Position numbers and translations under genes: made by a program. A model generated the notes under the pieces. The model ran no database searches and was not told where the DNA came from. It saw only the letters and a list, made by a program, of their open reading frames with translations. A stretch of 64,000 nt of DNA from Erwinia sp. JUb26 (GTDB lineage: Bacteria > Pseudomonadota > Gammaproteobacteria > Enterobacterales > Enterobacteriaceae), in the NCBI RefSeq assembly GCF_003751505.1, contig NZ_RJVB01000007.1:186001-250000 (forward strand). Direction: 5' to 3'. Shown here piece by piece: positions 53,900 through 64,000 of the stretch; position 1 is the first letter of the stretch, and every line of letters begins with the position of its first letter.

Positions 53900-53915
53900 T
53901 CAGGGATGCGTGACT

Positions 53916-55013
53916 ATGATCCGTCAGTTTGCCCTCACTAACTATCGCTCCATCCGTCATCTTGAGTTTGAACTCGGTCAGTTGAATGTCATCAGCGGAC
54001 CCAACGGCTGCGGCAAATCCAACCTGTATAAAGCGGTGCGTCTGCTGCATGAAGCGGCATGCGAACGCCTGTCGCTGGGGCTGGCACAGGACGGTGGCAT
54101 TCAGAAGGCGATGTGGGCGGGCGGAAAGCGGCCCGGCGAACGCAACAGCGAGCTGAAGCGTATGGTGCTGGCGGTTGAAATGAGCGACTTCGACTATCAG
54201 TTGGAAATTGGCTTTCCCGAGCCGCTGATCAGCCTGTTTAACCTCGACCCGCTGGTGAAAAAAGAACAGCTGTGGCTGAGCGGCCACCGACGCCGCCGAT
54301 CGGCGCAGCTGCTGGAGCGCAATAATCAGACTGCGTTTCTGCAAAATATTGACGGTGAAAGAGTGGCTTACCCGGCCTCGCTGCACGCGGAAGAATCGGT
54401 GTTTGCTCAGCTGGCGGAGCCGCATCTTTATCCAGAGGTGTCGCAGGTGCGTGAGAGTCTGCGCGGCTGGCGTTTCTACCACGAATTTGCCGTGTGGCCC
54501 GGTAGCGCGCTGCGTGCGCCGCAGGTGGGCATTCGCTCACCGGTGCTGGCCCATGACGGCAGCAACCTGGCTGCCGCCTTTGAAACGATTCGCGAACGCG
54601 GGCACAGCGAGCTGCTGTTCTCGACCCTTGAGCGGGCGTTTCCCGACTGTCGCTTTGAAGTAGACGCGCAGGGCGGGCGTTTTCAGCTGCTGATGCATCG
54701 CCAGGGTATTCTGCGGCCGCTGGAATCCGCCGAACTGTCCGATGGCACGCTGCGCTTTCTCTGCCTGGTGGTGGCGCTGCTCAGTCCGCGTCCGCCCGCA
54801 TTTATGGCATTAAACGAACCGGAGAACAGTCTGCATCCCGATCTGTTGCCCGCGCTCGCCGAGCTGATCGCCGAAGCCAGCCGCTACAGCCAGCTGTGGG
54901 TAACCAGCCATTCTCCGCTGCTGGCTCAGCTGATTGCTGAACACGCCGAGGTGCGACACTACCAGCTGGGCCAGGTAGATGGCGCAACGGTGATAAGCGA
55001 TGGCGCCGTCTGA
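53916..55013 (+). CDS. SMC/RecF-like AAA family ATPase (AAA_21 type), function unknown
   Basis: From ATG 53916, with AGGGA 9 bases upstream, the protein has 365 residues. Walker A is GPNGCGKS (28-35) and the N-terminus (IRQFALTNYRSIRHLEFELG) is RecF/Rad50-like. A signature-like ELSDGTLRFLCLVVALL precedes Walker B-like ALNEPENSLHPDLLP and the switch histidine TSHSPLL. It is an ABC-type ATPase without a coiled coil. No nuclease or TOPRIM partner lies next to it, so an OLD- or Gabija-like defence role is not supported. It is absent from this position in E. coli. Confidence 0.8.
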   Translation: MIRQFALTNYRSIRHLEFELGQLNVISGPNGCGKSNLYKAVRLLHEAACERLSLGLAQDGGIQKAMWAGGKRPGERNSELKRMVLAVEMSDFDYQLEIGFPEPLISLFNLDPLVKKEQLWLSGHRRRRSAQLLERNNQTAFLQNIDGERVAYPASLHAEESVFAQLAEPHLYPEVSQVRESLRGWRFYHEFAVWPGSALRAPQVGIRSPVLAHDGSNLAAAFETIRERGHSELLFSTLERAFPDCRFEVDAQGGRFQLLMHRQGILRPLESAELSDGTLRFLCLVVALLSPRPPAFMALNEPENSLHPDLLPALAELIAEASRYSQLWVTSHSPLLAQLIAEHAEVRHYQLGQVDGATVISDGAV

Positions 55014-59765: not shown

Positions 59766-59842
59766 GCGCCCTTAGCTCAGCTGGATAGAGCACCGGCCTT
59801 CTAAGCCGTAGGTCACAGGTTCGAATCCTGTAGGGCGTGCCA
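59766..59842 (+). tRNA. argU: tRNA-Arg, anticodon TCT
   Basis: The 77-nt cloverleaf has acceptor GCGCCCT pairing with AGGGCGT (terminal G-U), D-loop AGCTCAGCTGGATAGAG, anticodon loop CTTCTAA, T-loop TTCGAAT and an encoded CCA. It reads the AGA codon (and AGG less well) and matches E. coli argU, including its place beside folD. argU is a classic integration site (DLP12 in E. coli), and foreign-looking DNA starts right after it here too. Confidence 0.97.
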
Positions 59843-60265
59843 TTAAATTTCAAGTCGTTATCCCATTCTTCATCCAGCCTGTTTCCTTCCTTTTTTCGTA
59901 ATCACGTCATCATCAAAAAATTAGCCTATTACAGCGCTATTGCCTTGTCATTTTTCACGCTCTTTCATCGTGCCTTTAGTAACATGTGTCCGATCGCTCA
60001 CTTCATTTACGGCGTATATAAAACACGCATATCATAAGATTTATTTCAATATAAAAATCGTTACTCATTTGATGTGAAAAAAATTTACATTTCTGTTTTC
60101 ACTACATACTATGTGGGTATGATAACCCTCTGTTAATTTTTATTGATTAAAATTCATAATAATCAATATTTTAATGATTTATTTTCATGGTGGAAAAATT
60201 TAGGATGTTGCTAGCCTGGATTTCAATAGCGACTCACACGCTAAATGTGAGGGTGGTATTTCTGA
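59843..60265. other. AT-rich leader of the hxs operon
   Basis: This 423-bp stretch between tRNA-Arg and hxsD is much richer in A and T than the backbone. It holds no supported gene. Close to hxsD lies an inverted repeat, CTCACA-n7-TGTGAG (60233-60251), whose right half overlaps the GAGGGTGG ribosome-binding region. It could be an operator or an mRNA hairpin controlling translation. Several A/T-only runs could serve as promoter elements; none is decisive. Confidence 0.5.
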
Positions 60266-60553
60266 ATGAGAGCTGTAGATATGCTAAAAACCATTAGAAA
60301 AAAAGAATATTCGGAATGGGTGGTTCGTAACAGCCTTTACTGGATGAGTGCCATTACTCACTGGAAGCTTGATGGGGACGATCGGGATTGGATCGTGTCA
60401 TTTAAATCGTCTGGTGATGAAGTTGAGTTCGAGTTTGAACGGCTGTTGAACGATTACAAGCTCAGAGAGCAACTGCAGGCACATACGGGCCCGGTCAGGA
60501 CTGCAATCATCGACAATGTCCTGAGGAGCATTGATTCGAGACTTGCACAATGA
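60266..60553 (+). CDS. hxsD: HxsD, His-Xaa-Ser system small protein
   Basis: The 95-residue protein shows the HxsD pattern: an aromatic N-terminal block NSLYWMSAITHWKLDGDD, then FERLLNDYKLREQLQAHTG and a helix IIDNVLRSIDSRL. No catalytic motif is visible. It is the first gene of the hxs operon and overlaps hxsB by 4 bases. Size and position suggest a peptide-recognition or scaffold partner for the radical SAM enzymes, but this is inference. GAGGGTGG precedes the ATG. Confidence 0.82.
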   Translation: MRAVDMLKTIRKKEYSEWVVRNSLYWMSAITHWKLDGDDRDWIVSFKSSGDEVEFEFERLLNDYKLREQLQAHTGPVRTAIIDNVLRSIDSRLAQ

Positions 60554-61944
60554 ATACGATGCCATTCAACTTTGACCGTTTGTCTAATGGCAACGTCTTT
60601 ATCAGCAACCTTGCGGGCTTCCACAGCTTCGTCGATAACACCGAGCTTAATTTCCTGGCGGAAAATAACTTCCCGGCGGAGCATCACACTGCCAGACTTC
60701 TCGAGAGTCGGTTGTTTATCGCTGACGATGCTACTAAGTCTGTGTCACAAGCCTCGCTCAGTTCGGCCTTCGCCAGGCGGCTGATGAATGAGCTGGCCGT
60801 TCGGCCCATTTTCATGATTGTGCCGACTCTCAGATGCGATCATACCTGCAAATATTGCCAGGTTAGCAGAGCATCGGCCTCCGCTGACGGCTACGATCTT
60901 GACCCTGAACTGATACCGCAGATCATCACCGCGATTAAGAAGCTTGGCACCGCACCCTATAAAATCGAAGTGCAGGGTGGCGAACCACTCCTCAGATTCG
61001 ATCTTGTCCAAAAAATCTATGAAGAATGTGAGAGTGCATTAGGCATTGATGCTTTCGAAATGGTTATTGCGACGAGCCTGTCTCTGCTTGATACCCGAAT
61101 TGTTGCCTGGGTTAAAGAACGGAACATCACCTTTTCCGTCTCGCTTGATGGCAACGAGGCTATCCATAATAAGAACCGTATTCTTACCGACTTTAAGGCG
61201 CACTCTAAAGCCGTTACGGGTATTCAGAAAATCACAGAGGAGCTTGGAACAGGCAGGGTCGCAACGGTGACCACGGTGACTAAAGAGCTGACAAAAGAGC
61301 CCGCCTCAATAGTTGAGGCTCACCTGTCTTTAGGGCTGACCGATATGTTTATCAGGCCTGTCAGTCCCTATGGCTTTGCCCAGAAGCAGAGCTTCACTTT
61401 CTCAATGCCTGAGTATTTCGAGTTTTATCGAGAATTGATGCAGGAAGTGCTGCTGCAGAATCAGAAGGGCGTTCCTCTCGTAGAGCACTCGGCCTCTATT
61501 CATCTTAAGCGAATTTTCAATCCGGGCTTCAGCGGCTATGCAGATTTGAAATCACCCAGCGGTCTGGTATTGAACTGCATCCTCTTCAATTATGACGGTA
61601 AAGTCTACGGCAGTGACGAAAGCCGTATGCTTCAGAAAGTCAATCCGGAAGCAGATTTCAGTGCCGGAGAATTTGCCTCGTTATCTTTTAGTCGCAACGC
61701 GTACTATCGCTCCTCTCTGGCATCCTCATTTAACTTTGCCATGCCAGGTTGTGATACCTGTGCCTATCAGCCGTTCTGTGGCGCCGATCCTTGCCAAAAC
61801 ATCAGCGTTTATGGCGAACCCGTTGGAGACAAAAGTCGATCTACCTTTTGTCAGTACCATAAAGGTATGTTCCGTTTCCTGCTGGATGAGATCTCTCAGG
61901 ATGGGCCGATGGCAGAAATGCTCAAAGGATGGGCTTATGTCTGA
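60550..61944 (+). CDS. hxsB: HxsB, His-Xaa-Ser system radical SAM maturase
   Basis: The 464-residue protein has the radical SAM cluster motif C96-x3-C100-x2-C103 (RCDHTCKYC) and the SAM-binding VQGGEP (141-146). The C-terminal SPASM-like region has C343, C401, C404, C410, C415 and C434, ready for auxiliary Fe-S clusters as in peptide-modifying maturases. An N-terminal block of about 85 residues may bind the precursor. Family knowledge names it HxsB; its reaction is not known to me. It overlaps both neighbours, which implies fixed stoichiometry. Confidence 0.9.
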   Translation: MNTMPFNFDRLSNGNVFISNLAGFHSFVDNTELNFLAENNFPAEHHTARLLESRLFIADDATKSVSQASLSSAFARRLMNELAVRPIFMIVPTLRCDHTCKYCQVSRASASADGYDLDPELIPQIITAIKKLGTAPYKIEVQGGEPLLRFDLVQKIYEECESALGIDAFEMVIATSLSLLDTRIVAWVKERNITFSVSLDGNEAIHNKNRILTDFKAHSKAVTGIQKITEELGTGRVATVTTVTKELTKEPASIVEAHLSLGLTDMFIRPVSPYGFAQKQSFTFSMPEYFEFYRELMQEVLLQNQKGVPLVEHSASIHLKRIFNPGFSGYADLKSPSGLVLNCILFNYDGKVYGSDESRMLQKVNPEADFSAGEFASLSFSRNAYYRSSLASSFNFAMPGCDTCAYQPFCGADPCQNISVYGEPVGDKSRSTFCQYHKGMFRFLLDEISQDGPMAEMLKGWAYV

Positions 61945-63049
61945 GGTACTGAGAAACGATATTTTCCGGTTTTCATCAGAACTACCCGTTCAGCAGGGAT
62001 TCTATCGCCTGTGCAAATTCAAGCCCGAAAATCCGCAGTTCTATCTGCCAAATTTGCTGATCACTGAAACTCAGCTCGATTCACCGCTATCCGCTTATTT
62101 TGTAGATTCCGTGACGAGCAAAGTACTTTTCGATGCCATCGATGATGGTGATATAGGGATCGTTAATAACGGCAATATGCTCAGAGTGATTTTGTCCCGC
62201 AGAGCTAACCATAATACGGTCCTGGTCACTGAGCGATGTAACAACGGCTGCCTGTTTTGTTCCCAGCCCCCTAAAACGGGAAACGATGACTGGCTCCTGA
62301 ACCAGTCGGCACTCGCGATTGCCTCTTTCTCTTTAAACGGTGTTGTTGGAGTGAGCGGAGGTGAGCCCCTGCTCTATGGCGATGACTTCCTGCACTTTCT
62401 CGATTTTATTATTGAAAATTCGCCTGAAACTGCCCTGCACGTTTTAACAAACGGGCGAAATTTTGCGGATGTTAGATTTACCCAGAGGATGAAAGAACGC
62501 AGTGAAAAGATGCGAATCACCTTTGGCATACCGCTTTATTCCTCCAGACCATCCGTGCATGACTATCTGGTGGGAAGCGAGGGAGCATTTAATGAGACTG
62601 TCAGAGGGCTAATTAATGCGGGGAACTCAGGGATTAACATTGAACTGAGGATCATCCCAACACGGGCTAACTATAACGAGCTGGATAGCATCGTAGAGTT
62701 CGCTGGCCGGGTGTTCTCAAACATTAACCAGATTTCCCTGATGGGGCTGGAATCGACAGGATGGGCCCGCAAAAACTGGTCATCAATCTTTATTGAGCAT
62801 GACATTTATAGCGACAATATTCTTTCTGCTGTGGACAGCGCTTACAGGTCAGGCATTCCGCTTACCATTTTCAATTATCCATTGTGTCATCTTCCTGAAA
62901 GAGCATGGCAGTTTTCCACTCAGTCCATCTCCGATTGGAAGAATTACTATCCCCAGGAATGTGATACATGCACCCGGAAGTCTTCCTGTGCGGGCTATTT
63001 CAGTTCATCAAAAGGACGTTTTCATCAACCCCCGAGACCAATAATATGA
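61937..63049 (+). CDS. hxsC: HxsC, second His-Xaa-Ser system radical SAM protein
   Basis: From ATG 61937 the protein has 370 residues and overlaps hxsB by 8 bases. The cluster motif is C101-x3-C105-x2-C108 (RCNNGCLFC), with GVSGGEP (138-144) for SAM. C317, C342, C345 and C351 near the C-terminus may hold one more cluster, fewer than in HxsB. It also has its own N-terminal domain of about 95 residues. Two dissimilar radical SAM enzymes in one operon suggest two sequential chemical steps. Its stop overlaps the hxsA start (ATGA). Confidence 0.9.
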   Translation: MSEVLRNDIFRFSSELPVQQGFYRLCKFKPENPQFYLPNLLITETQLDSPLSAYFVDSVTSKVLFDAIDDGDIGIVNNGNMLRVILSRRANHNTVLVTERCNNGCLFCSQPPKTGNDDWLLNQSALAIASFSLNGVVGVSGGEPLLYGDDFLHFLDFIIENSPETALHVLTNGRNFADVRFTQRMKERSEKMRITFGIPLYSSRPSVHDYLVGSEGAFNETVRGLINAGNSGINIELRIIPTRANYNELDSIVEFAGRVFSNINQISLMGLESTGWARKNWSSIFIEHDIYSDNILSAVDSAYRSGIPLTIFNYPLCHLPERAWQFSTQSISDWKNYYPQECDTCTRKSSCAGYFSSSKGRFHQPPRPII

Positions 63050-63681
63050 AAAAGTTTAATTTCGCAGCCCTGCTTCCCGGATTTTTGGCTCTGAATAACT
63101 CTGTCTGGGCGAGTGATGCATCTACAGGAGCTAATGATTTACCCAGAATGGCTCTCAATGAACATGACATGGTGATAGCCCCGCTGAATACTGAGGTGCC
63201 GTTTTATATTGCAGGGCACCGCAGTCACAGCTCTCATCGCAGCCACAGTTCTCATCGTTCTTCATCAGGCGGTGGCTATTATGGTGGCAGCACGCCTTAT
63301 TACCCTAAAACGTACAGTTCACCGAGTTCTTCTGGCACTTCAGGTTCAACAACGGGTTCGTCACCCTCTCCGTCATCGGCTCGTTCGCTTCGTTCTAATA
63401 ACATTGATACCTCCACGACCACGAATTCAGCTGGAGTGAACGGAAGTACCCGTGCAAGTAATGGACTGACTTCGGATGCTGAAAAACGTAAACGTTTGAT
63501 CATGCGAGTGCAGTTTGCGTTACTCGACAGGGGATTCTACAACGGGAATATAGACGGGAGTATGGGGCCTGCAACACGAACGGCAATCAAAAATTACAGG
63601 GTGGCGAATGGCTTACCGACTCCGGTAAGAGAGACTCTGGATACGCAGTTATTGAATTCGTTGAATATTCTGGCCCGATAA
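63046..63681 (+). CDS. hxsA: HxsA, secreted His-Xaa-Ser repeat protein
   Basis: From ATG 63046 the product has 211 residues. A signal peptide ends about WA-S (residue 22). Residues 58-72 are five consecutive His-Xaa-Ser triplets (HRS HSS HRS HSS HRS). They are followed by a Gly/Tyr and then a Ser/Thr-rich linker (about 73-145). The C-terminal domain (about 148-207) looks like a peptidoglycan-binding domain (LDRGFYNGNIDGSMGPATRTAIKNY). The triplets are the presumed target of HxsB and HxsC. The mature protein should sit in the periplasm or on the wall. Confidence 0.92.
   Translation: MKKFNFAALLPGFLALNNSVWASDASTGANDLPRMALNEHDMVIAPLNTEVPFYIAGHRSHSSHRSHSSHRSSSGGGYYGGSTPYYPKTYSSPSSSGTSGSTTGSSPSPSSARSLRSNNIDTSTTTNSAGVNGSTRASNGLTSDAEKRKRLIMRVQFALLDRGFYNGNIDGSMGPATRTAIKNYRVANGLPTPVRETLDTQLLNSLNILAR
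63217..63261 (+). repeat. 18-bp tandem repeat coding the His-Xaa-Ser array
   Basis: Two 18-bp units, CACCGCAGTCACAGCTCT and CATCGCAGCCACAGTTCT, differ at only three synonymous bases and are followed by half a unit (CATCGTTCT). Each unit codes HRSHSS. The repeat could expand or shrink by slippage in steps of two triplets. Confidence 0.85.
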
Positions 63682-63813
63682 AATCAGGCTATGTGCGGAT
63701 TTCGATCTGACTTGTGCACTCAGAGCTCTGGACGTAATTCTTTTTGCCTGTTCCCTGCCTTAGTTCGCTCAATGACCGGTAGCGCGAGGGAAAGCTGGGG
63801 CAGACGTAGAAAG

Positions 63814-63839
63814 AAAAACGGTGCTGATACACCGTTTTT
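63814..63839. terminator. Bidirectional terminator after hxsA
   Basis: AAAAACGGTG / CACCGTTTTT with a CTGATA loop has five T on each strand after the stem. It sits between hxsA and the convergent partial transporter gene, closing the hxs operon. The 63682-63813 stretch before it shows no gene. Confidence 0.9.
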
Positions 63840-63855
63840 CACAGCGCTCAAACCA

Positions 63856-64000
63856 TCAAGCCTTAGCCCCGATCGCTGTTACCGGCTTGCCATCCTGTTT
63901 AATCTCCGGACGCACCGAATACATGATCGCCACAGAGACAAACAGCGATACCGCCATCAGCACAAATGACAGGCTCGGGTTACCGGTCAGGCCGTTCAGT
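63856..64000 (-). CDS. C-terminal part of a probable MFS transporter
   Basis: The minus strand is open from the window edge to a TGA at 63858-63856. The last 47 residues include LTGNPSLSFVLMAVSLFVSVAIMY, a hydrophobic final membrane segment, then a polar tail SVRPEIKQDGKPVTAIGAKA. This looks like the end of a major facilitator of the metabolite:H+ symporter kind. Too little is visible to name the substrate. Confidence 0.6.
   Translation of the reverse strand, partial: LNGLTGNPSLSFVLMAVSLFVSVAIMYSVRPEIKQDGKPVTAIGAKA

Follow-up and report, generated by a model that had tools for sequence, protein, structure and literature searches.

An intact hxsDBCA cassette near a tRNA-Arg gene in Erwinia sp. 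JUb26 and a tentative chemistry for its His-x-Ser array

What two radical S-adenosylmethionine (SAM) enzymes might do to a neighbouring protein with a run of His-x-Ser (HxS) triplets is the question raised by four overlapping plus-strand genes that form the far end of a 64,000-nucleotide stretch of Erwinia sp. JUb26 DNA (NCBI RefSeq assembly GCF_003751505.1, contig NZ_RJVB01000007.1, positions 186,001 to 250,000; the whole stretch is called the window here). A preliminary description had taken them for a complete hxsDBCA system, and of that identity there is hardly any doubt, as all four proteins passed the curated NCBIfam cut-offs (Table 1) in the hidden Markov model search with the HxsA to HxsD models that it had proposed. 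Other particulars were borne out as well: the genes overlap by 4, 8 and 4 bases (D/B, B/C and C/A) when the coordinates are checked, Pfam Radical_SAM is found in both HxsB and HxsC, and cluster cysteines, SAM motifs and repeat are intact, with CxxxCxxC, GGE and five HxS triplets present. HxsD matched no Pfam family up to E 0.01. In 14 well-known genomes used as controls nothing scored above the TIGR03978 cut-off, weak matches being found in all 14 because radical SAM proteins are common; TIGR03979 gave none above cut-off and weak matches in five, while the genome studied here holds one HxsA above that cut-off and one weak match. The cassette is an ordinary member of an already catalogued kind, the Hxs system (TIGR03976-TIGR03979), whose HxsB and HxsC are named putative maturases, with credit to Haft and Basu, in one paper (PMC9062424). 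It shares its DBCA order with 82 of the 104 loci compared here, and nothing essential sets it apart.

These 104 loci, with 102 distinct HxsB proteins, include the window copy once and exclude L127; in two cases (L034/L126 and L007/L114) one stretch of DNA enters the count under two names. HxsD, HxsB, HxsC and HxsA are all present in 99 of them, and the order ADBC, often with a shorter HxsA, was seen in 14. An open reading frame (ORF) within 5 kb was called HxsA if it had three or more contiguous HxS triplets, or a total of four with two of them contiguous; the array is thus in part a product of this criterion, and the result is that such an ORF was found in 103 of the 104. A scan of one genome per species gave 166 relatives, and the comparison retained the 80 best of these, which fall in 77 loci; IMG/VR gave 15 loci. 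TIGR03978 was passed in six of the 37 genomes of the genus, the window genome included. In E. coli the cassette was matched in 154 of 5426 genomes (144 over at least 80% of its length), and all 156 places were chromosomal; HxsB relatives were found in 417 of 72,556 plasmid records (E up to 1e-30; 321 from Klebsiella, 330 typed conjugative) and in two of 50,697 phage records (E up to 1e-20). We also observed, on a human-gut contig labelled phage (L008 871-6425), HxsD-, HxsC- and HxsB-like genes, an HxsA-like protein with interrupted HxS arrays and, named by eye, a prepilin-peptidase-like gene.

HxsA residues 58-72, to which the preliminary description had pointed, read HRSHSSHRSHSSHRS, that is, five contiguous triplets starting at residues 58, 61, 64, 67 and 70. 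The identical 15-residue array is common to 42 loci in 26 DNA spellings, which differ from each other by a mean of 11.4 of 45 bases and at most by 21, some serines even changing from one of the two serine codon groups to the other; since the peptide is identical despite this codon variation, selection acts on the peptide itself. A Leptospira phage record (L007) has the identical array in an HxsA of only 99 aa that is 31% identical and without the wall-binding part, so that selection of the peptide is not tied only to a wall-binding form. Across loci the middle residue is Ser, Arg, Tyr, Ala or a rarer one, and what is fixed is a His with a Ser two residues later, the triplets being kept even in interrupted arrays (L008, L118, L120). 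Of the 118 His that lie outside the main array, from 40 residues ahead of it onwards, 42 are followed at +2 by Ser and 33 by Leu, so that stray His do not all show this pairing. The array protein adjoins the enzymes in nearly every locus, and its peptide is conserved while its codons vary; this supports, indirectly, the earlier proposal that the array is a substrate of the cassette enzymes, which is very probably right. The further suggestions of that description, that HxsB and HxsC act in turn and that the change comes before or during export, are more conjectural. No cysteine occurs in the window HxsA, which excludes thioethers within it, and 95 of 100 distinct HxsA sequences have none at or after the array; a thioether peptide (sactipeptide or ranthipeptide) was considered and rejected on this ground, the modified region having no cysteine donors. 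HxsA is probably exported, judging by eye from its hydrophobic N-terminus. As a separate observation, a His- and Met-rich protein of membrane type that is encoded on another contig of this genome (L002 1204-1890, C1 at about 511.7 kb) carries HSSHSSHSSHSSHSS; it matches TIGR03979 weakly (20.9 bits) and may be a second substrate or a plain metal binder.

HxsB and HxsC have seven invariant cysteines each, which is enough for a SAM cluster and one auxiliary cluster, and GGE motifs are invariant in the 99 HxsB and 104 HxsC sequences aligned; C343 and C415 of HxsB vary among the 99. The AlphaFold2 model of HxsD (pLDDT 92.7, a per-residue confidence measure) has a beta-alpha-beta-beta-long-alpha arrangement, and it gave no confident match when a winged-helix fold, as in the PqqD-like recognition element of ribosomally synthesised and post-translationally modified peptides, was considered for it; HxsB was modelled with a pLDDT of 88.8.

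Table 1. Coordinates of the cassette, its motifs and the surrounding features (window positions, except where loci are listed).
Feature	Position	Strand	Remarks
hxsD	60266-60553	+	95 aa; TIGR03976 91.1 bits (cut-off 50); small partner
hxsB	60550-61944	+	464 aa; TIGR03978 565.9 bits (cut-off 370); radical SAM maturase
HxsB CxxxCxxC (C96, C100, C103)	60835-60858	+	SAM-cluster cysteines; invariant in 99/99 aligned sequences
HxsB C401, C404, C410, C434	61750-61851	+	cysteines for one auxiliary cluster; invariant in 99/99
hxsC	61937-63049	+	370 aa; TIGR03977 399.4 bits (cut-off 267.9); second radical SAM maturase
HxsC CxxxCxxC (C101, C105, C108)	62237-62260	+	invariant in 104/104
HxsC C317, C342, C345, C351	62885-62989	+	cysteines for one auxiliary cluster; invariant in 104/104
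hxsA	63046-63681	+	211 aa; TIGR03979 170.4 bits (cut-off 121.65); probable substrate protein, cysteine-free
HxsA N-terminal hydrophobic segment	63046-63111	+	probable Sec signal peptide, read by eye
HxS array HRSHSSHRSHSSHRS	63217-63261	+	HxsA residues 58-72
PG_binding_1 peptidoglycan-binding domain	63505-63618	+	HxsA residues 154-191; PF01471 26.2 bits (cut-off 23)
tRNA-Arg(TCT)	59766-59842	+	ARAGORN; insertion site flanking cassette
AT-rich spacer	59843-60265		GC 0.33, against 0.58 for window 1-59765
TIGR04141/DUF6119 gene after hxsA	L030, L033, L035-L037, L040, L042-L046, L049, L050, L123, L124	same as hxsA	

As for the chemistry, no measured Hxs chemistry turned up in the open-access literature searched, subscription journals being mostly outside its coverage. 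The triceptide enzymes FxsB (which we take to be MscB), XyeB (likewise presumably XncB), HaaB and YhhB are radical SAM maturases like those of the cassette, and they act on aromatic-x-residue triplets. Such triplets include Phe-x-Ser and His-x-Ala, and the enzymes link Phe to the beta-carbon of Ser, and C2 of His to that of Ala or Arg, over the same spacing, according to one report (PMC11002830). At the level of the substrate motif, the H-x-S of the window fits an aromatic residue at i and a modified residue at i+2. Because of this fixed spacing of His and Ser, and of the known enzymes that link over it, we tentatively favour, by analogy, a crosslink from i to i+2 between His and Ser in each HxS triplet. 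HxsD and the N-terminal domain of HxsB would bring the unexported HxsA to both enzymes, and a 5'-deoxyadenosyl radical generated at the SAM cluster would take a hydrogen from the beta-carbon of the triplet's Ser; the resulting Ser radical would then bond with the imidazole of the triplet's His, two positions earlier, to give a three-residue His-Ser cyclophane with a loss of 2 Da per triplet. HxsC might make a second change, of a kind we leave unspecified, or serve part of the triplets. Sec would export the modified HxsA, and its PG_binding_1 domain would anchor it to the cell wall, as a rigid imidazole-rich envelope stretch and perhaps a metal binder. Unlike the triceptide systems, the Hxs cassette has as its probable substrate a protein of 211 aa that carries a cell-wall-binding domain, and neither a protease nor an exporter was seen among its genes.

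Part of the evidence nevertheless speaks against a cyclophane. HxsB passes no model of a three-residue cyclophane-forming enzyme among those tested, scoring 31.1 bits with FxsB (cut-off 370), 21.9 with XyeB (450) and 47.0 with YhhB (445), and it fits TIGR03942, the model of anaerobic sulfatase-maturating enzymes (anSME), better (50.7 bits) than FxsB or XyeB. The latter is real evidence for the main named rival, serine oxidation, in which an anSME-like HxsB would turn the Ser of each triplet into formylglycine, an aldehyde, with His serving recognition or metal binding and HxsC acting on the product. We consider this unlikely, as HxsB remains below the anSME cut-off of 349.45 and keeps the cysteines for one auxiliary cluster, whereas anSME has two, and as Ser oxidation by itself gives no reason why every Ser in the array should have a His at -2; both reactions would start with hydrogen abstraction at the beta-carbon of Ser. 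Ranked by sequence among enzymes of solved structure, HxsB finds CteB, anSME, TigE and ChlB first, a ranking that we rejected as a guide because it does not decide the chemistry; a search for the activity of ChlB found nothing. Structures 5wgg and 5why are, we assume, those of CteB, the SCIFF thioether maturase; CteB joins the sulphur of Cys, and HxsA has none.

Another radical change, be it epimerisation, a rearrangement of backbone or side chain, or HxsB and HxsC changing different residues in different ways, is a possibility that we hold to be rather doubtful; it has no specific support, and EpeE comes far below CteB in the structure ranking. Even less probable, and indeed very unlikely, is a reading in which the array simply binds metal, with no modification or only an incidental one, and the enzymes act elsewhere. 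The HSS x5 array of the unlinked His- and Met-rich protein would agree with it, but enzymes and array protein are kept together across distant bacteria, and the array peptide is conserved against codon drift. The His-Ser crosslink remains the candidate that we put forward, tentatively, for the HxS triplets.

How the cassette came to lie where it does is a related question. The tRNA-Arg gene that the preliminary description placed next to it is there, ending 423 bp upstream, and is the only tRNA that ARAGORN found in the window, but it is an insertion site for varying DNA and not part of the system. The folD-tRNA region was matched in all 37 genomes of the genus, and the interval from the tRNA to a major facilitator superfamily (MFS) gene measures 4.0 kb in the window, 5.8 kb in G027 and about 33 kb in G008; in G027, which is 96% identical at the folD-tRNA region, this interval is taken up by other genes and an integrase remnant. 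Five genus mates (G010, G016, G024, G026, G030) have near-identical 45-bp copies of the tRNA 3' end on the same contig, 24-48 kb off. G019 (L127 4116-12094) has, after the same tRNA, an integrase-like ORF and then hxsD, hxsB (broken by an IS3-like element), hxsC and hxsA, with a TIGR04141-like gene directly behind hxsA (the insertion sequence, IS, and the integrase-like ORF next to the tRNA were named by eye). The varying content beside the tRNA, together with the distant copies of its 3' end, makes the site a hotspot for the insertion of variable cargo. The closest sister (L128 1750-6835) has in this interval, by eye, CoA transferase-like and thiamine-pyrophosphate decarboxylase-like genes. 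With a GC content of 0.48 against 0.58, the window cassette looks acquired, and a mobile element may have brought it to the tRNA-Arg gene. No integration gene was found to accompany it, the L127 integrase has no match in the spacer at E up to 1, and the 19 kb of L121, which extend some 13 kb beyond the cassette, showed no border repeat. An attR to the right of the cassette was looked for and rejected, since the one exact match on L121 to tRNA tails of 12 to 45 bases is the tRNA itself, and elsewhere no 20-base match has fewer than six mismatches. The spacer has six of the eight promoter-like matches of 59800-64000, and shuffles average 6.1. Around the other copies of the genus above cut-off (L122-L125, L126), no tRNA-Arg(TCT) was found in the 19 kb examined for each.

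Mobility invites the thought that Hxs serves against phages or is cargo of mobile elements, with a modified envelope protein blocking infection. We regard this as a weak lead rather than a finding, and as improbable. In its favour, each of three E. coli copies that were inspected sits in an element carrying integrases and a relaxase gene; ParB genes are present in two of these, and one copy adjoins AbiD/PD-T4-5-like and, weakly, GajA-like (25 bits) genes; neighbours elsewhere include QatA-like (370.8 bits, cut-off 600; L031), OLD-TOPRIM AAA (L029) and SIR2-domain (L125) proteins; the E. coli and conjugative-plasmid counts given above point the same way, and hxsDBCA figures as putative prophage cargo of S. 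Typhi in one study (PMC10686908). In another (PMC8446631), a list of P. aeruginosa genes has hxs together with genes of conjugative elements and phages. Against the defence reading, HxsD and HxsA match no family of PADLOC 2023, and HxsB and HxsC match only viperin (pVip) models, weakly, at 24 bits. The neighbours, taken as simple ORFs of at least 90 aa, some of which are not genes, comprised 149 from 26 Enterobacterales loci (152 were picked from 27, and three of L050 excluded) and 148 from 39 of 53 other loci (14 dropped at random, all Pseudomonas except L076). A PADLOC tally gave 145 families among the 149 proteins, yet also 28 from 49 window genes, and was rejected as a measure of defence enrichment; among the 25 families listed for each were LmuB (7), PDC-S06 (3), mad3 (3), GajB (2) and QatA (2) for the former, and mad3 (2) with HEC-01A, AriA, AbiLi and others (1 each) for the latter. 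A P-loop ATPase-like gene at 53910-55010, named by eye, is possibly the window gene that matches the AriA, AbiLi and GajA models. The commonest families among the 148 are ordinary, namely LysR regulators (12) and zinc dehydrogenases (5), with two YhaV toxins, and this is why the defence role is only a weak lead. The 149 hold 14 DUF6119, 12 RepB, 6 ParB_N, 5 phage integrase and 2 relaxase proteins, and no DUF6119, RepB or integrase was among the 25 of 72 families listed for the 148.

In 15 of the 29 Enterobacterales loci a TIGR04141/DUF6119 gene lies 5-73 bp behind hxsA on the same strand (Table 1), although L043 and L050 have it as a partial ORF. The 29 include the window copy, which lacks the gene, and none of 52 other loci has it. 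These counts exclude L076, the E. coli and plasmid records, the viral loci, L126 and L127; outside them the gene was found in L003, L004, L005, L111 and L127. A fifth Hxs gene was rejected, given its absence from the 52 and the other genes that follow hxsA in L029, L031 and L125, and it is more likely cargo of the element. On the one Klebsiella plasmid inspected, which is conjugative (L006 494-15126), a heat-resistance gene cluster and a ferric citrate operon flank the cassette, and IS elements surround it.

In a bolder and distinctly speculative picture, which we think unlikely, HxsA would be fixed to the wall, unable to diffuse, and would bear five His-Ser cyclophanes in a row, a rigid, imidazole-lined rod acting in the envelope in metal capture or phage exclusion, with mobile elements spreading it between bacteria. 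If this were true, radical SAM crosslinking would serve a structural protein instead of a released peptide. Whatever its function, the plasmid records, most of them conjugative, and the three E. coli elements suggest a trait worth carrying, and this compact, intact and cysteine-free copy, with its strongly conserved array, offers a clean substrate to decide between crosslinking and serine oxidation.

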